36,226 bases of DNA from Chloroflexi bacterium ADurb.Bin325. Lineage in GTDB: Bacteria; Chloroflexota; Anaerolineae; CG2-30-64-16. The DNA lies in contig MWBF01000005.1 of assembly GCA_002068935.1 (NCBI GenBank), positions 1 to 36,226 on the forward strand. Direction: 5' to 3'. Shown here piece by piece: positions 502 through 5,485 of the stretch. Below the pieces are notes generated by a model. The model was given only the letters and a program-made list of their open reading frames with translations, had not been told where the DNA came from and did no database searches. Numbering within the stretch: the first letter of the stretch is position 1; each line of letters opens with the position of its first letter. The translations under genes and the position numbers were made by a program.

Positions 502-574
<73 letters not shown>

Positions 575-650
575 CTGAAGGCCGCGGCGTCGCACAGGAT
601 GAAGATGCCGGAAGCGCCCTGAGCGGGAGCCGTCGCATCCTGTGCGAAGT

Positions 651-835
651 GGTCATGCCCCTGTGGTCACCGTCCAGGATGAAAATGTCGGAAGCACCCT
701 GAGCGGAGGGCGTCGCGCAGCGACGCACGCAGTCGAAGGGGCGGCCCTCATGTCCGCTCCTTTGACTGGCCTTTCGTCGTCAGCCACGTCGAGCCGGACA
801 ACCCGCTCAGGATGCTCCGTCTCGTTTATGGGAAG
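651..835 (+). repeat. Dispersed repeat family R, long composite copy 1
   Basis: About 185 bases nearly identical to 22147-22342. It is an imperfect long palindrome: a forward unit (CACCCTGAGCG ... GCAGTCGAAGGGGC) followed by an inverted unit (GCTCCTTTGACTGGCC ... CCGCTCAGGATGC). A degraded unit precedes it at about 594-650. Between the tRNA-Ala and tRNA-Gly genes I see only such repeats and the tRNA-Gly promoter. ORFs read across these units give meaningless peptides such as RHPERSEAQSKD, a known signature of spurious ORFs. Confidence 0.8.
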
Positions 836-844
836 CTTGCGAAG

Positions 845-880
845 GCATCCTGAGCGGAGCGAAGCGCAGTCGAAGGATGC
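845..880 (+). repeat. Repeat family R, short hairpin copy
   Basis: GCATCCTGAGCGG ... CAGTCGAAGGATGC; the ends GCATCCT/AGGATGC can pair. Same family as 651-835. Confidence 0.75.
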
Positions 881-969
881 GACTCGGAGTCGAAGGGACG
901 GCCATTTTCAAAGCGGTGCGGGCGCAGCCGCAGGACGCCCGACCTGTTTGGAAGCTGTTGGCGTCGTTC

Positions 970-997
970 TTGACAGCTTGCCGGAAACGGGTATAAT
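970..997 (+). promoter_or_regulatory. Strong promoter for tRNA-Gly
   Basis: Perfect TTGACA and perfect TATAAT with a 16-base spacer, 29 bases before the tRNA-Gly gene. Confidence 0.85.
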
Positions 998-1026
998 GCG
1001 CCCTGTAGGCTCACATAAGCTGATCC

Positions 1027-1098
1027 GCGGGTGTAGTACAGTGGTAGTACGTCTCCTTGCCAAGGAGAAGGTCACGGGTTCGAATCCCGTCACCCGCT
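1027..1098 (+). tRNA. tRNA-Gly (anticodon GCC)
   Basis: Acceptor GCGGGTG/CACCCGC, D arm GTAC/GTAC, anticodon stem TCTCC/GGAGA with loop TTGCCAA (anticodon GCC), T arm ACGGG-TTCGAAT-CCCGT, discriminator T. Confidence 0.97.
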
Positions 1099-1144
1099 TA
1101 GCGCTTACCGGGATGGCTGATAGCAGATCGCTCGCCCTGATAGC

Positions 1145-1162
1145 GTAACACGCCCGTGTTAC
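1145..1162. repeat. Perfect palindrome between tRNA-Gly and tRNA-Phe
   Basis: GTAACACG and CGTGTTAC separated by two bases. Followed by GGCCTTCTGCATCGGCC and a T-rich stretch, so it could be a weak terminator for tRNA-Gly or an operator; undecided. Confidence 0.4.
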
Positions 1163-1192
1163 CGGCCTTCTGCATCGGCCATTTCTTATCTT

Positions 1193-1265
1193 GCCGAGGT
1201 AGCTCAGTTGGTAGAGCACGCGACTGAAAATTGCGGTGTCCCCAGTTCAAGTCTGGGCCTCGGCA
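1193..1265 (+). tRNA. tRNA-Phe (anticodon GAA)
   Basis: Acceptor GCCGAGG/CCTCGGC, D arm GCTC/GAGC, anticodon stem CGCGA/TTGCG (one G:T pair) with loop CTGAAAA, T arm CCCAG-TTCAAGT-CTGGG, discriminator A. Confidence 0.96.
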
Positions 1266-1324
1266 CTCGAATGGGTTGACCGCCGGGCAAGCTCGACCGT
1301 CGAGCCACCCCGGAGATCAAACAA

Positions 1325-1395
1325 TCGGGGGTCGTTCAACGGCAGGACAGCAGCCTTTGGAGCTGCGTATCGGGGTTCGAATCCCTGCCCCCGAG
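1325..1395 (+). tRNA. tRNA-Gln (anticodon TTG)
   Basis: Acceptor TCGGGGG/CCCCCGA, D arm GTTC/GGAC, anticodon stem GCAGC/GCTGC with loop CTTTGGA, T arm CGGGG-TTCGAAT-CCCTG, discriminator G. The weak T1:A72 pair and G73 are known glutamine identity elements. Confidence 0.95.
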
Positions 1396-1455
1396 CTGGA
1401 AGGGGGCAGGAAACGAGCGTTCAATGAGCGTCACGCCCGTCAGCGCCCAATGCAT

Positions 1456-1529
1456 GGTGGCCATAGCTCAATTGGCAGAGCACCTGGTTGTGGCCCAGGA
1501 GGTCGTGGGTTCAAGCCCCACTGGCCACC
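1456..1529 (+). tRNA. tRNA-His (anticodon GTG)
   Basis: Acceptor GTGGCCA/TGGCCAC, D arm GCTC/GAGC, anticodon stem CCTGG/CCAGG with loop TTGTGGC, T arm GTGGG-TTCAAGC-CCCAC. A genomically encoded G at -1 (1456) faces C73 (1529), the histidine identity pair. Confidence 0.96.
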
Positions 1530-1647
1530 CCTCCGCAAGGTGTCCGGCGTCCCGATGGGATGGCCGGACATTTCGGTTAAACCGGGGCCGCCGCGGCCCC
1601 GGCCGATGAGCTGCGGCCTGCCGCAGCCGGGATCATCGCGCTGCGGC

Positions 1648-2298: not shown

Positions 2299-2344
2299 AA
2301 AAAGACAGGGTCCGGAGCGGGGATTGGACCCGTCCCGGACCCTG
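2299..2344 (-). terminator. Intrinsic terminator of the minus-strand RNA
   Basis: Perfect 10-bp stem (2335-2344 with 2306-2315, CAGGGTCCGG/CCGGACCCTG) followed on the minus strand by TCTTTTT. The large loop contains a secondary GGG/CCC stem. Confidence 0.75.
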
Positions 2345-2360
2345 CTTGGGCACCGTAGCA

Positions 2361-2417
2361 CTACCCATTGAGCCGAGGTGATGCTACGGTGCCACACTTA
2401 CGACTACTTTGGTCCAT
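2361..2417 (-). CDS. Candidate small protein or leader peptide, 18 residues
   Basis: Reads MDQSSRKCGTVASPRLNG and stops at TAG inside the loop of stem A. AGGAGG lies 8 bases before ATG 2417. Another ATG at 2423 would add two residues but sits too close to the ribosome-binding site. The site itself is part of stem B, so translation would depend on which stem forms. No homologue is recognised. The well-spaced ribosome-binding site is the main support; chance occurrence in a structured RNA remains possible. Confidence 0.35.
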   Translation of the reverse strand: MDQSSRKCGTVASPRLNG

Positions 2418-2478
2418 TTGCATCACCTCCTCGGCAGTAGGATGGCGAGGTAAGGGCGTCCTGTCGGACGCAAGGGTC

Positions 2479-2506
2479 ATTATCACTGGAAACGTAGATT
2501 TGTCAA
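2479..2506 (-). promoter_or_regulatory. Promoter of the minus-strand RNA
   Basis: Perfect TTGACA (2501-2506) and GATAAT (2479-2484) with a 16-base spacer; predicted start near 2472, exactly at the 5' hairpin. Confidence 0.75.
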
Positions 2507-2569
2507 ATGGCCGAATGGGGCAAGCGGATGCCCCACGCGCCTCCGCGCGCGGGCACTTGGCATCGCTGT

Positions 2570-2629
2570 GCATCCTTCGACTGGCCTTGCGCCGTCGGCG
2601 GTGTTGAGCCGCCCACCCGCTCAGGATGC
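2570..2629 (-). repeat. Repeat family R, inverted copy
   Basis: GCATCCTTCGACTGGCC ... CCGCTCAGGATGC, the reverse orientation of the 651-835 unit. Ends GCATCC/GGATGC can pair. Confidence 0.75.
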
Positions 2630-2644
2630 CCGGACGGGGGGGGG

Positions 2645-2729
2645 CACGGTCAGAGACCGGCCCCAGCATCTTTCGCCGGCCCCAGCATCTTTCGCCGGCT
2701 CTGGCCGGTCTCCGACCGAGCCAGGGGGC
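2645..2729. repeat. Palindromic repeat family P, rearranged copy with tandem insert
   Basis: CGGTCAGAGACCGGCC (2647-2662) and GGCCGGTCTCCGACCG (about 2703-2718) flank two direct copies of a 19-base unit (CCAGCATCTTTCGCCGGC). Compared with the other family P copies the arms face the opposite way, as if this were the junction of two adjacent elements. Confidence 0.7.
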
Positions 2730-2743
2730 AAGACTGCCAGGGG

Positions 2744-2802
2744 TATCCTTCGACTGGCCTTGCGCCGTCGGCGGCGTTGGGCCGTCCACCCGCTCAGGAT
2801 GC
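2744..2802 (-). repeat. Repeat family R, inverted copy
   Basis: Near-duplicate of 2570-2629 (TATCCTTCGACTGGCC ... CGCTCAGGATGC). The stretch 2507-2853 contains only family R and P repeats and no convincing gene. Confidence 0.75.
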
Positions 2803-2853
2803 CCGCGCGGGCGGGCATTTGGCCTGGCCGGGCCGCTACTGCGGCGCGCGATG

Positions 2854-2862
2854 TGCTACAAT
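2854..2862 (+). promoter_or_regulatory. Extended -10 promoter for murF-alr
   Basis: TGCTACAAT is an extended -10 element. No good -35 is seen at 17 bases. A start 7-8 bases downstream would fall on or next to ATG 2870, implying a leaderless message. Confidence 0.5.
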
Positions 2863-2869
2863 GGGACGC

Positions 2870-5485
2870 ATGATCCAACTGAACGACCTGCTGGCTGCGA
2901 CCGGCGGCGCGCTGCACTTCCGCGGCCCCGCAGCCGCGTTCACTTCCTTCTGCTGGGACTCGCGGCTCGCGCAGCCGGGCCAGCTCTTTGTCGCGGTCAA
3001 GACCGAGCGTGCCGACGGGCACGACTACATCCGCCACGCGCTCGACCGGGGCGTGACCGGCGTCCTGTGCGAGCGGCCGGTCGATCCCGCGCCGCAGGCC
3101 GCGGCCGTGGTCGTCGTGCCCGATACGCGGGCCGCGCTCCAGGCATGGGCGCGCCTCGCGCTGGCGCGGCAGCAGGTCGAGGTCATCGGCGTCACCGGCA
3201 GCGTCGGCAAGACGACGGCCAAGGAGGCCATCGCGCACGTGCTGGACGGCGGCGCGGGCGCGAGCATCTTCCGCAACCGCGCCAATTACAACGGGCTTTA
3301 CGGCCTGCCGCTGGCCCTCGGCGAGCTGCGGCCCGACCAGCACATCGCCGTCCTCGAGATGGCCGCGGACCACTTCGGCGAGATCGCGCGGCTGTGCGCG
3401 CTCGCGCCGCCCCGCATCGGCGTCGTGACCACGGTCGAGCCCGCGCATCTCGCGACGTTCGGCACGCTGGAGGCGATCGCGCGCGAGAAGGCCGCGCTGA
3501 TCGCGGCGCTGCCCGCGGATGGGCTGGCCGTGCTCAACGCTGACGACCCGCGCGTGGCCGCGATGGCCGCGCAGTCCGCCGCGGCCGTCGTCACCTTCGG
3601 CACGGAGGCCTGCGCCGGCCGCGCGAACATCTGCGCGCGGGAACTGGTCGTCTCGCGCGAGGGCCTGGATTTCGTGGCGCACACGCCCGCTGGCCGGCGC
3701 AGGCTGCACATCCCGCTCCTGGGCCGACATCAGGTCTATGCCGCGCTGGCCGCGCTGGCCGTGGCGCTGCATCGGGGGATCGACCTCGATGCAGCGGTCG
3801 CGCGGCTGAGGACGCTGCCGCGCGTGCCGGGCCGCCTCTACCCGCTCGCGGGCGTGGCCGGCAGCCTGCTGCTGGACGACTCCTACAGCTCCAGCCCCGC
3901 GGCGGCCGAGGCCGCGCTGGACACGCTGGCCGCGGTCGAGGGCCGGCGCAAGGTCGCGGTGCTGGGCGACATGCTGGAGCTGGGCGATTACGAGGCCGCG
4001 GGGCACGAGGAGGTGGGCCGCAAGGCCGCGGCGTGCGTGGATCTGCTCGTCACGCGCGGGGAGCGCGGTCGGCGCATCGCGGAGGCCGCGCGCGCCGCGG
4101 GCCTGCCGCCGGAGCAGGTGCTCATCACCTACACCGCGGAGGATGCGGCGCGCGTGGTGCGCGAGCGGCTGGGGCCGGGCGACGTAGTGCTGGTCAAGGG
4201 TTCGCTGGCCGCGCGCATGGAGCAGGTGGTCCGCCTGCTGCTGGCCGAGCCGGCCGATGCGCCGGCGCATCTCGTCCGCCAGGACGCGGGCTGGCAGGCG
4301 GTCGTCACCGTCTCGTCGCAGCGGCCGACCTGGCTGGAGATCGACCTGGGCGCCATCGCAAACAACGTCCGGCGGCTGAAGGCGCTGGCCGACCCCGCGG
4401 GGCTGCTGATCTCGCTCAAGGCGGACGCATACGGCCACGGCGCGATCCAGGTTGCGCACACCGCGCTGCACAACGGCGCGACCTGGCTCGGCGTCGCGAC
4501 GTTCAGCGAGGGCGTCGCGCTGCGCCAGGCTGGGATCGATGCGCCGATCCTGGTGCTCGGCTATACGCCCGCGTGGCAGGCGCGTGACCTGCTGCGCCAC
4601 GACCTGACCGCGACCGTGTTCGACCTGGAGGTCGCGGCCGCGCTGAGCCGCGCCAGCGTCGCGCTGGAACGACCCGCCCGCGTCCACGTCAAGGTGGACA
4701 CGGGCATGGCGCGGCTTGGCGTGTTTCCGGATGCGGCGCTGGAGTTCGTCCGCGCCCTGGCCGCGCTGCCCGGCGTGGCGGTCGAGGGCGTCTTCACGCA
4801 CCTGGCCGTGTCGGACGGCGAGACGGAGTTCGAGGTCGAGTACACCGCGCGCCAACTGGCCGCGTTCCACGGCCTGCTGGACAGCCTGGCCGCCGCGGGC
4901 ATCCGCATCCCGCTCGTCCACGCGGCCAACAGCGCGGGGCTGCTGGCCGCGCAGGGCGACCGGCTGCGCAATGCAGTCGCGGCGCACGCGGCCGGTGCGC
5001 CGCTGGCCGCGCACACGCTGGCGCGCGCGGGGATCGCTGTCTACGGGCTGGACCCGTCGCCGGGCGTGCGCTGTCCGGAGGGCTTCCGGCCCGCGCTCGC
5101 ATGGAAGACGCAGATCGCGCAGGTCAAGACACTGCCGCCGGGCAGCTATGTCGGCTACGGCGCGACCTATCGCACGGCGGGCGAGGAGCGGATTGCGGTG
5201 ATCCCGGTGGGCTATGCGGATGGGTTCCGCCGCGCGCCGCAGCACTGGGGCGAGGTGCTCGTGCGCGGGCAGGCCGCGCCGATCGTGGGCCGGGTGTCGA
5301 TGGATCAGACGATGATCGACGTGACGCACATCGCGCACGTGCGCCAGGGCGACGAGGTCGTGCTGATCGGCCGGCAGGGCGACGCGGCGATCACCGTGGA
5401 GGATGTGGCGCGCCGGCTCGGCACGATCAACTACGAGGTGGTCTCGGCGATCCTGGCGCGCGTGCCGCGCGAGGCTCTGCCTTGA
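2870..5485 (+). CDS. murF-alr: Bifunctional MurF ligase / alanine racemase fusion
   Basis: 871 residues in one frame. Residues 1 to about 470 are UDP-MurNAc-tripeptide:D-Ala-D-Ala ligase, with P-loop GVTGSVGKTT at 107-116 and the usual C-terminal VLVKGS block. Residues about 482-871 are a complete PLP alanine racemase: WLEIDLGAI start, SLKADAYGHG with the PLP lysine K517, GYGATY with the second catalytic base Y763, and GRVSMDQTMID. The racemase makes the D-Ala that (after Ddl) the ligase joins to the peptidoglycan precursor, so the fusion couples consecutive cytoplasmic wall-synthesis activities. Such fusions are well known in Bacteroidota. The open frame extends upstream to 2507, but that part is repeat DNA; ATG 2861 overlaps the -10 box, so ATG 2870 is preferred. 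No Shine-Dalgarno site. Confidence 0.93.
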   Translation: MIQLNDLLAATGGALHFRGPAAAFTSFCWDSRLAQPGQLFVAVKTERADGHDYIRHALDRGVTGVLCERPVDPAPQAAAVVVVPDTRAALQAWARLALARQQVEVIGVTGSVGKTTAKEAIAHVLDGGAGASIFRNRANYNGLYGLPLALGELRPDQHIAVLEMAADHFGEIARLCALAPPRIGVVTTVEPAHLATFGTLEAIAREKAALIAALPADGLAVLNADDPRVAAMAAQSAAAVVTFGTEACAGRANICARELVVSREGLDFVAHTPAGRRRLHIPLLGRHQVYAALAALAVALHRGIDLDAAVARLRTLPRVPGRLYPLAGVAGSLLLDDSYSSSPAAAEAALDTLAAVEGRRKVAVLGDMLELGDYEAAGHEEVGRKAAACVDLLVTRGERGRRIAEAARAAGLPPEQVLITYTAEDAARVVRERLGPGDVVLVKGSLAARMEQVVRLLLAEPADAPAHLVRQDAGWQAVVTVSSQRPTWLEIDLGAIANNVRRLKALADPAGLLISLKADAYGHGAIQVAHTALHNGATWLGVATFSEGVALRQAGIDAPILVLGYTPAWQARDLLRHDLTATVFDLEVAAALSRASVALERPARVHVKVDTGMARLGVFPDAALEFVRALAALPGVAVEGVFTHLAVSDGETEFEVEYTARQLAAFHGLLDSLAAAGIRIPLVHAANSAGLLAAQGDRLRNAVAAHAAGAPLAAHTLARAGIAVYGLDPSPGVRCPEGFRPALAWKTQIAQVKTLPPGSYVGYGATYRTAGEERIAVIPVGYADGFRRAPQHWGEVLVRGQAAPIVGRVSMDQTMIDVTHIAHVRQGDEVVLIGRQGDAAITVEDVARRLGTINYEVVSAILARVPREALP

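Follow-up and report, generated by a model that had tools for sequence, protein, structure and literature searches.

What might a short stretch of DNA with the anatomy of a leader-peptide attenuator do when no gene follows it? The question is raised by positions 2299-2506, on the minus strand, of the window, by which we mean the whole stretch of 36 226 nucleotides analysed here (contig MWBF01000005.1, from a draft assembly of Chloroflexi bacterium ADurb.Bin325). An initial annotation had described a promoter, a hairpin at the predicted start, an RNA of approximately 174 nt closed by a terminator with a T run, two stems (A and B) that share bases, and an AGGAGG sequence in stem B ahead of an 18-codon ORF ending in the loop of stem A; it left the choice between a free regulatory RNA and a switchable micropeptide gene.

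The predicted transcription unit

Every one of these parts could be located in the window, the RNA itself remaining a prediction. The features, with SD standing for Shine-Dalgarno, are:

2479-2506, minus: sigma-70-type promoter, TTGACA (2506-2501), 16 nt, GATAAT (2484-2479); consensus score 11/12
2299-2472, minus: predicted small RNA of approximately 174 nt (2472-2299), its extent and predicted start site taken from the promoter and terminator positions
2456-2471, minus: 5' hairpin GCGTCC-GACA-GGACGC at the predicted 5' end (computed fold)
2438-2447, minus: upstream motif CGCCATCCTA, conserved in relatives as GCYATCC or GCCGTCC; SD-paired in the computed fold
2420-2431, minus: segment 1, the extended SD AGGAGGTGATGC, complementary to the 16S tail ATCACCTCC
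2431-2426, minus: SD core AGGAGG
2361-2417, minus: micro-ORF MDQSSRKCGTVASPRLNG, 18 codons plus TAG; ATG at 2417, stop TAG (2363-2361) in the stem A loop
2375-2384, minus: segment 2, the anti-SD GCATCACCTC; pairs with segment 1 as stem B, its first 4 nt lying also in stem A
2381-2393, minus: stem A, 5' arm GGCACCGTAGCAT; covariation in 6/11 pairs
2349-2361, minus: stem A, 3' arm, or segment 3 GTGCTACGGTGCC; covariation in 6/11 pairs
2393-2381 / 2361-2349, minus: stem A (2:3)
2429-2420 / 2384-2375, minus: stem B (1:2), SD to anti-SD inside the ORF
2299-2345, minus: intrinsic terminator, a 12-bp stem with a nested 4-bp stem, then CTTTTT at 2304-2299 (computed fold)
approximately 2345-2334 / 2316-2305, minus: terminator stem arms

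The 174-nt RNA folds with a computed energy of -87.5 kcal/mol (z = -6.9 against shuffled sequence). The 5' hairpin is specific to the clade, because the 5' parts of the element differ among relatives. A T-arm-like sequence, GGGTCCAATCCC, gives the 3' part a superficial likeness to a tRNA, but it belongs to the terminator; ARAGORN and Rfam call no tRNA there, and the terminators of relatives are unrelated to it. A 6S RNA (RF00013) was likewise rejected, as its covariance model gave no match at the unit, and the 6S RNA of the genome lies elsewhere (G000:C203).

Distribution in the Chloroflexota

A plain DNA search of 60 genomes detected homologs in each of the nine further family members sampled and in approximately 20 additional genomes of the class; two matches (L027 and L031) proved false on reading. 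The covariance model R1, built from 23 of these homologs, matched 240 of 396 genomes of the class, almost always with a single copy in each, and reached other families of the phylum weakly, where the sequences showed the same plan on inspection. A second model, R2, seeded solely on families of the phylum outside the class, matched 87 of 400 phylum genomes and recovered the window locus, which is absent from its seed, at identical coordinates. Together the two models matched 135 of the 400, a lower bound, although matches near E = 0.01 were not all read individually and a few may be false. They placed the element identically in 42 of the 42 shared genomes compared, an agreement whose independent part is the six class genomes absent from the R2 seed, the seed itself having come from R1 matches. 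Phylogenetic non-independence of the genomes affects every count given here.

Twelve genomes of other phyla gave no match at E <= 0.01, and approximately 59 true loci emerged when 85 000 named species genomes were scanned by pattern; each belonged to the Chloroflexota (Anaerolineae, Caldilineaceae, Thermoflexus and unclassified members). A dozen pattern matches elsewhere, in actinobacteria and proteobacteria, had no ATG, ORF or stem and were discarded as chance, and no viral copy was found by pattern in IMG/VR. Nearly all of the retrieved elements keep one plan: a sigma-70 promoter, a very strong SD, a micro-ORF of approximately 14-22 codons, an anti-SD within the ORF for which the SD and a 3' arm are alternative partners, a stop codon in the intervening loop and, usually, a terminator thereafter. 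One genome carries two copies whose peptides differ (G666:C4 and G666:C7; L101 and L251).

At its gathering threshold, Rfam 15 reported nothing but tRNAs for either the window or 19 homologous loci, and at a permissive threshold only chance-level matches; a literature search for Chloroflexi small RNAs and stand-alone attenuators found nothing that matched. The comparison confirms that the flagged unit is real and conserved far beyond chance, the transcript itself being predicted, and that it belongs to a previously unlisted family of putative small RNA genes, usually single-copy, in many Chloroflexota.

Two pairings for one segment

The stem A pairing (2:3) was intact in 96% of alignment cells, with six of its 11 pairs changed on both sides; none of 500 shuffles gave covariation as high. 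The 1:2 pairing was intact in 100% of cells in the class alignment set. In alignment A3, which holds the families of the phylum outside the class, segment 2 (columns 58-67) pairs with the SD region in 99.5% of cells and with the 3' arm in 94.3%, and in the latter pairing six of 11 pairs are altered on both sides. These families thus have two mutually exclusive helices with one common segment of approximately 10 nt, whereas in the window the overlap is only approximately 4 nt (2384-2381). The earlier statement that the stems share bases therefore stands, as does their mutual exclusion in the other families, but 'cannot coexist' was too strong for the window genome, in which a trimmed pseudoknot holding both stems at once is possible.

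Substitutions of segment 2 in A3 are compensated in the 3' arm and tolerated as G-U pairs against the constrained SD. The pair formed by A7 of the SD with the anti-SD is A-U in 86 cases, G-C in six, G-U in two and mismatched in none, where the SD side is highly constrained and covariation of the SD pairing comes from few families; a clade in which the SD is lengthened to GAGGAGG often has a matching CTCCTC. In 117 of 136 elements, the SD and the body of the ORF were more complementary than in 99 of 100 shuffles. On this comparative evidence both pairings are conserved, that with the 3' arm by covariation and that with the SD by changing solely in compatible ways. The check proposed with the initial annotation, a search for conservation and covariation of the stems in relatives, thus found phylum-wide conservation, covariation of stem A and a conserved SD/anti-SD pairing that includes replacement of A-U by G-C.

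The upstream motif (GCCATCCTA or GCCGTCC) is conserved through most of the phylum. As a candidate second arm masking the SD, it pairs with the SD in the minimum-energy fold, yet no better than shuffled upstream sequence.

The micro-ORF and its peptide

The ORF was found in the homologs except in single cases. Of the AGT (Ser) codons, 171 are in frame and three are not, and the sequence GTAGT lies 4, 7, 10, 13 or 16 nt from the ATG, constant in phase but variable in codon number. Because AGT keeps to the frame in this ratio despite its varying distance from the ATG, we judge the micro-ORF, by comparative criteria, to be translated, which gives the leader a short translated ORF with an SD. Serine accounts for 31% of codons 2-8 (AGT 169, AGC 56, TCN 13) and NGT codons for 35%, the codon-usage background being rough (four ORFs of the window, one of them in the wrong frame, with 15 stops). 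The preference for NGT, and for AGY over TCN serine codons, may reflect slow decoding, low structure or the sensing of one tRNA.

The stop codon (TAG 72, TAA 52, TGA 12) was placed in the 2:3 loop by script for 101 of 110 elements and on reading for 108, compared with 22 expected after shuffling; the script took the terminator for stem A in seven of the 110, and the counts are given both ways. Single exceptions without the loop stop are L014, L098, L187 and L191. All three frames are used to read segment 2 (82, 31 and 4 cases, one of the four being a wrong-strand artefact), with translations such as ..VASP.., ..GIT.. and ..HHL..; therefore, its RNA and not its peptide is conserved.

These results bear on the possibility that the product is the peptide itself, hydrophilic, serine-rich and 14-22 residues long, and that the pairings merely tune its translation in a self-limiting way. 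Conservation of the ORF, its start, its in-frame serine codons and its stop would all be expected of such a micropeptide gene, and synonymous single changes in codons 2-8 (35%, compared with 18% expected) are a mild sign of constraint at the protein level. However, clades differ in the frame used for the second half of the peptide, and the residues after the anti-SD show no conservation, the shared motif being limited to M-(D/S)..S(S). We consider this explanation unlikely, though worth keeping in mind. The initial proposal, which offered a switchable micropeptide gene and a free regulatory RNA as alternatives, is well supported as a pair. Of the two, the RNA is favoured, since clades differ in the frame in which they read the anti-SD but agree in preserving it as RNA.

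Sequences of one other family (L203, L204 and L205, and also L094) have a similar SD and an ORF of 11-12 codons, their homology to the element being uncertain. Their stop codon lies in or at the loop of a hairpin with T-rich sequence directly after it, as if 2:3 were the terminator.

The SD invites a different explanation, that the RNA serves as a ribosome decoy or a gauge of 30S subunits, in which the 10-nt SD of an abundant RNA would capture free 30S subunits or 16S tails in numbers set by the anti-SD loop. The sequence AGGAGGTGAT is close to the strongest SD that the 16S tail permits and is nearly invariant (alignment A1), the tail GGATCACCTCC is present in relatives, and segment 2 mimics it. 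A pure decoy, however, needs neither in-frame codons nor a stop in the loop, and we regard this role as improbable.

Genomic context

A promoter scoring at least 10/12 lies upstream of 111 of 136 elements, compared with two of 136 after shuffling. A simple scan found a terminator-like hairpin after the ORF in 83 of 136 elements (27 in shuffled sequence), and strong terminators numbered 67 against three. The neighbouring genes, named by eye from their translations, vary: 15 loci, the window among them, have a convergent HNH-type gene as 3' neighbour, nine have a same-strand HypE/AIR-synthase-like gene, and others a PfkA-like or unrelated gene; the upstream neighbours likewise switch by clade. 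Comparison thus shows the element to be a putative independent transcription unit with its own promoter, and bears out the description of an attenuator-like layout with no gene behind it, since no downstream gene is conserved across clades.

A cis-acting attenuator of a downstream gene would explain that layout, and the nine loci with a HypE/AIR-synthase-like gene could be taken as examples of it. An attenuator would, however, control the gene directly behind it, whereas here the context varies by clade, is often convergent and includes no conserved same-strand partner; nor is the terminator one of the competing helices, its hairpin being separate in the window and, with L094 and L203-L205 as possible exceptions, in most homologs; the 2:3 helix and the terminator do not overlap in most elements. 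We think this explanation very improbable. A type I toxin mRNA, suggested by the short ORF and sequestered SD, is barely credible, as the peptides are hydrophilic and have no membrane helix, no antisense promoter-like site was found over the unit, and the element occurs as one conserved copy at stable places, unlike a plasmid-like or island-like spread, with none in IMG/VR by pattern.

Three other features of the window lie nearby. Five consecutive tRNA genes (Ala, Gly, Phe, Gln, His; positions 503-1531, plus strand) stand upstream of the HNH-type gene. One open frame at 2507-5485 (plus strand) resembles MurF and then alanine racemase, and may be a fusion. An imperfect 71-nt repeat, ATCCTTCGACTGGCCTTGCGCCGTCGGCGG...CACCCGCTCAGGATGCC, occurs at 2572-2642 and 2745-2815; the genome contains 64 matches to it, frequently paired at close range, and it looks like a dispersed repeat of the REP type.

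Proposed working of the switch

We believe that the locus is probably the gene of a stand-alone RNA switch of the leader-peptide type, and one member of a Chloroflexota-wide family. More tentatively, and with slightly less than even confidence, we propose a phylum-wide stand-alone attenuator whose fold would depend on the ribosomes traversing its own micro-ORF and which would report the status of translation to other genes in trans, whether initiation, decoding of AGU/NGU codons or termination. During synthesis of the RNA, segment 2 would first shut the SD (1:2); segment 3 would emerge next, and the more stable 2:3 hairpin could then displace 1:2. If a ribosome occupied the start, or were slow to pass the early Ser/Cys/Arg NGU codons, it would cover segment 1 and so favour 2:3, the formation of which would free the start site from segment 2. 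A ribosome at the loop stop would instead cover segment 3 and allow segment 2 to return to the SD, so that each rapid round of translation would tend to switch the RNA off. The RNA would in this way record the start of ribosomes on the micro-ORF and their passage through it.

Folding of the window, L100 and L068 RNAs is consistent with this order of events: with the RNA made up to segment 2, the SD is closed by segment 2; the full-length fold prefers 2:3 (by 7.6 kcal/mol in the window), and 2:3 remains or forms when a ribosome is placed on the start region in the calculation. Part of the SD remains bound to the upstream motif when the full-length RNA is folded, and 2:3 alone is therefore no guarantee of an open start site. 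We infer the ribosome-driven switching from the anatomy of the element and from minimum-energy folds, which ignore pseudoknots.

The output would most likely be in trans because no gene lies behind the element, the alternative conformers exposing or hiding the anti-SD and the 10-nt SD. As output we place an RNA acting in trans ahead of the peptide, given that the latter's second half shows no conservation at the protein level.

Relation to known systems

The element shares with the trp and his leader-peptide attenuators a short ORF with a strong SD, mutually exclusive pairings, a decisive ribosome position and a terminal terminator. It differs in having no structural gene behind it, a terminator hairpin separate from the competing helices, and a codon bias towards AGY serine and NGU codons rather than towards one amino acid of a downstream pathway. 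In translational attenuators of the ermC type, alternative helices also hide or free an SD according to the ribosome in a short ORF, but the hidden SD is that of the downstream resistance gene and not, as here, that of the micro-ORF itself. Dual-function small RNAs are likewise stand-alone, with a small ORF and a Rho-independent end; in the Chloroflexota element, however, the extent of the ORF is tied to the switch by the loop stop and the anti-SD inside the ORF. That an attenuator can have an output in trans is indicated by rnTrpL/peTrpL of Sinorhizobium meliloti, whose leader peptide is described as acting in trans (PMC7298713); as described there, it comes from the leader of the trp operon, whereas the Chloroflexota RNA appears as an independent gene in every clade, and we claim no sequence relation. 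Another structured RNA candidate of this phylum is the Chloroflexi-1 RNA (RF01698), whose only reported source is Chloroflexus aggregans (PMC2864571). Rfam gave no match to it in the window or in the 19 homologs.

Biological significance

The Chloroflexota are abundant and largely uncultured, and, as far as we are aware, information on their small RNAs is very sparse. A single-copy RNA retained throughout the phylum likely has a core job, and the models described here provide a ready covariance family for annotation. The combination of an anti-SD within the ORF, a stop codon in the loop and no gene behind would mean that the sensing half of an attenuator has been split from its usual output in cis, and this split would allow a direct test of whether attenuator logic works as an independent regulator in trans.
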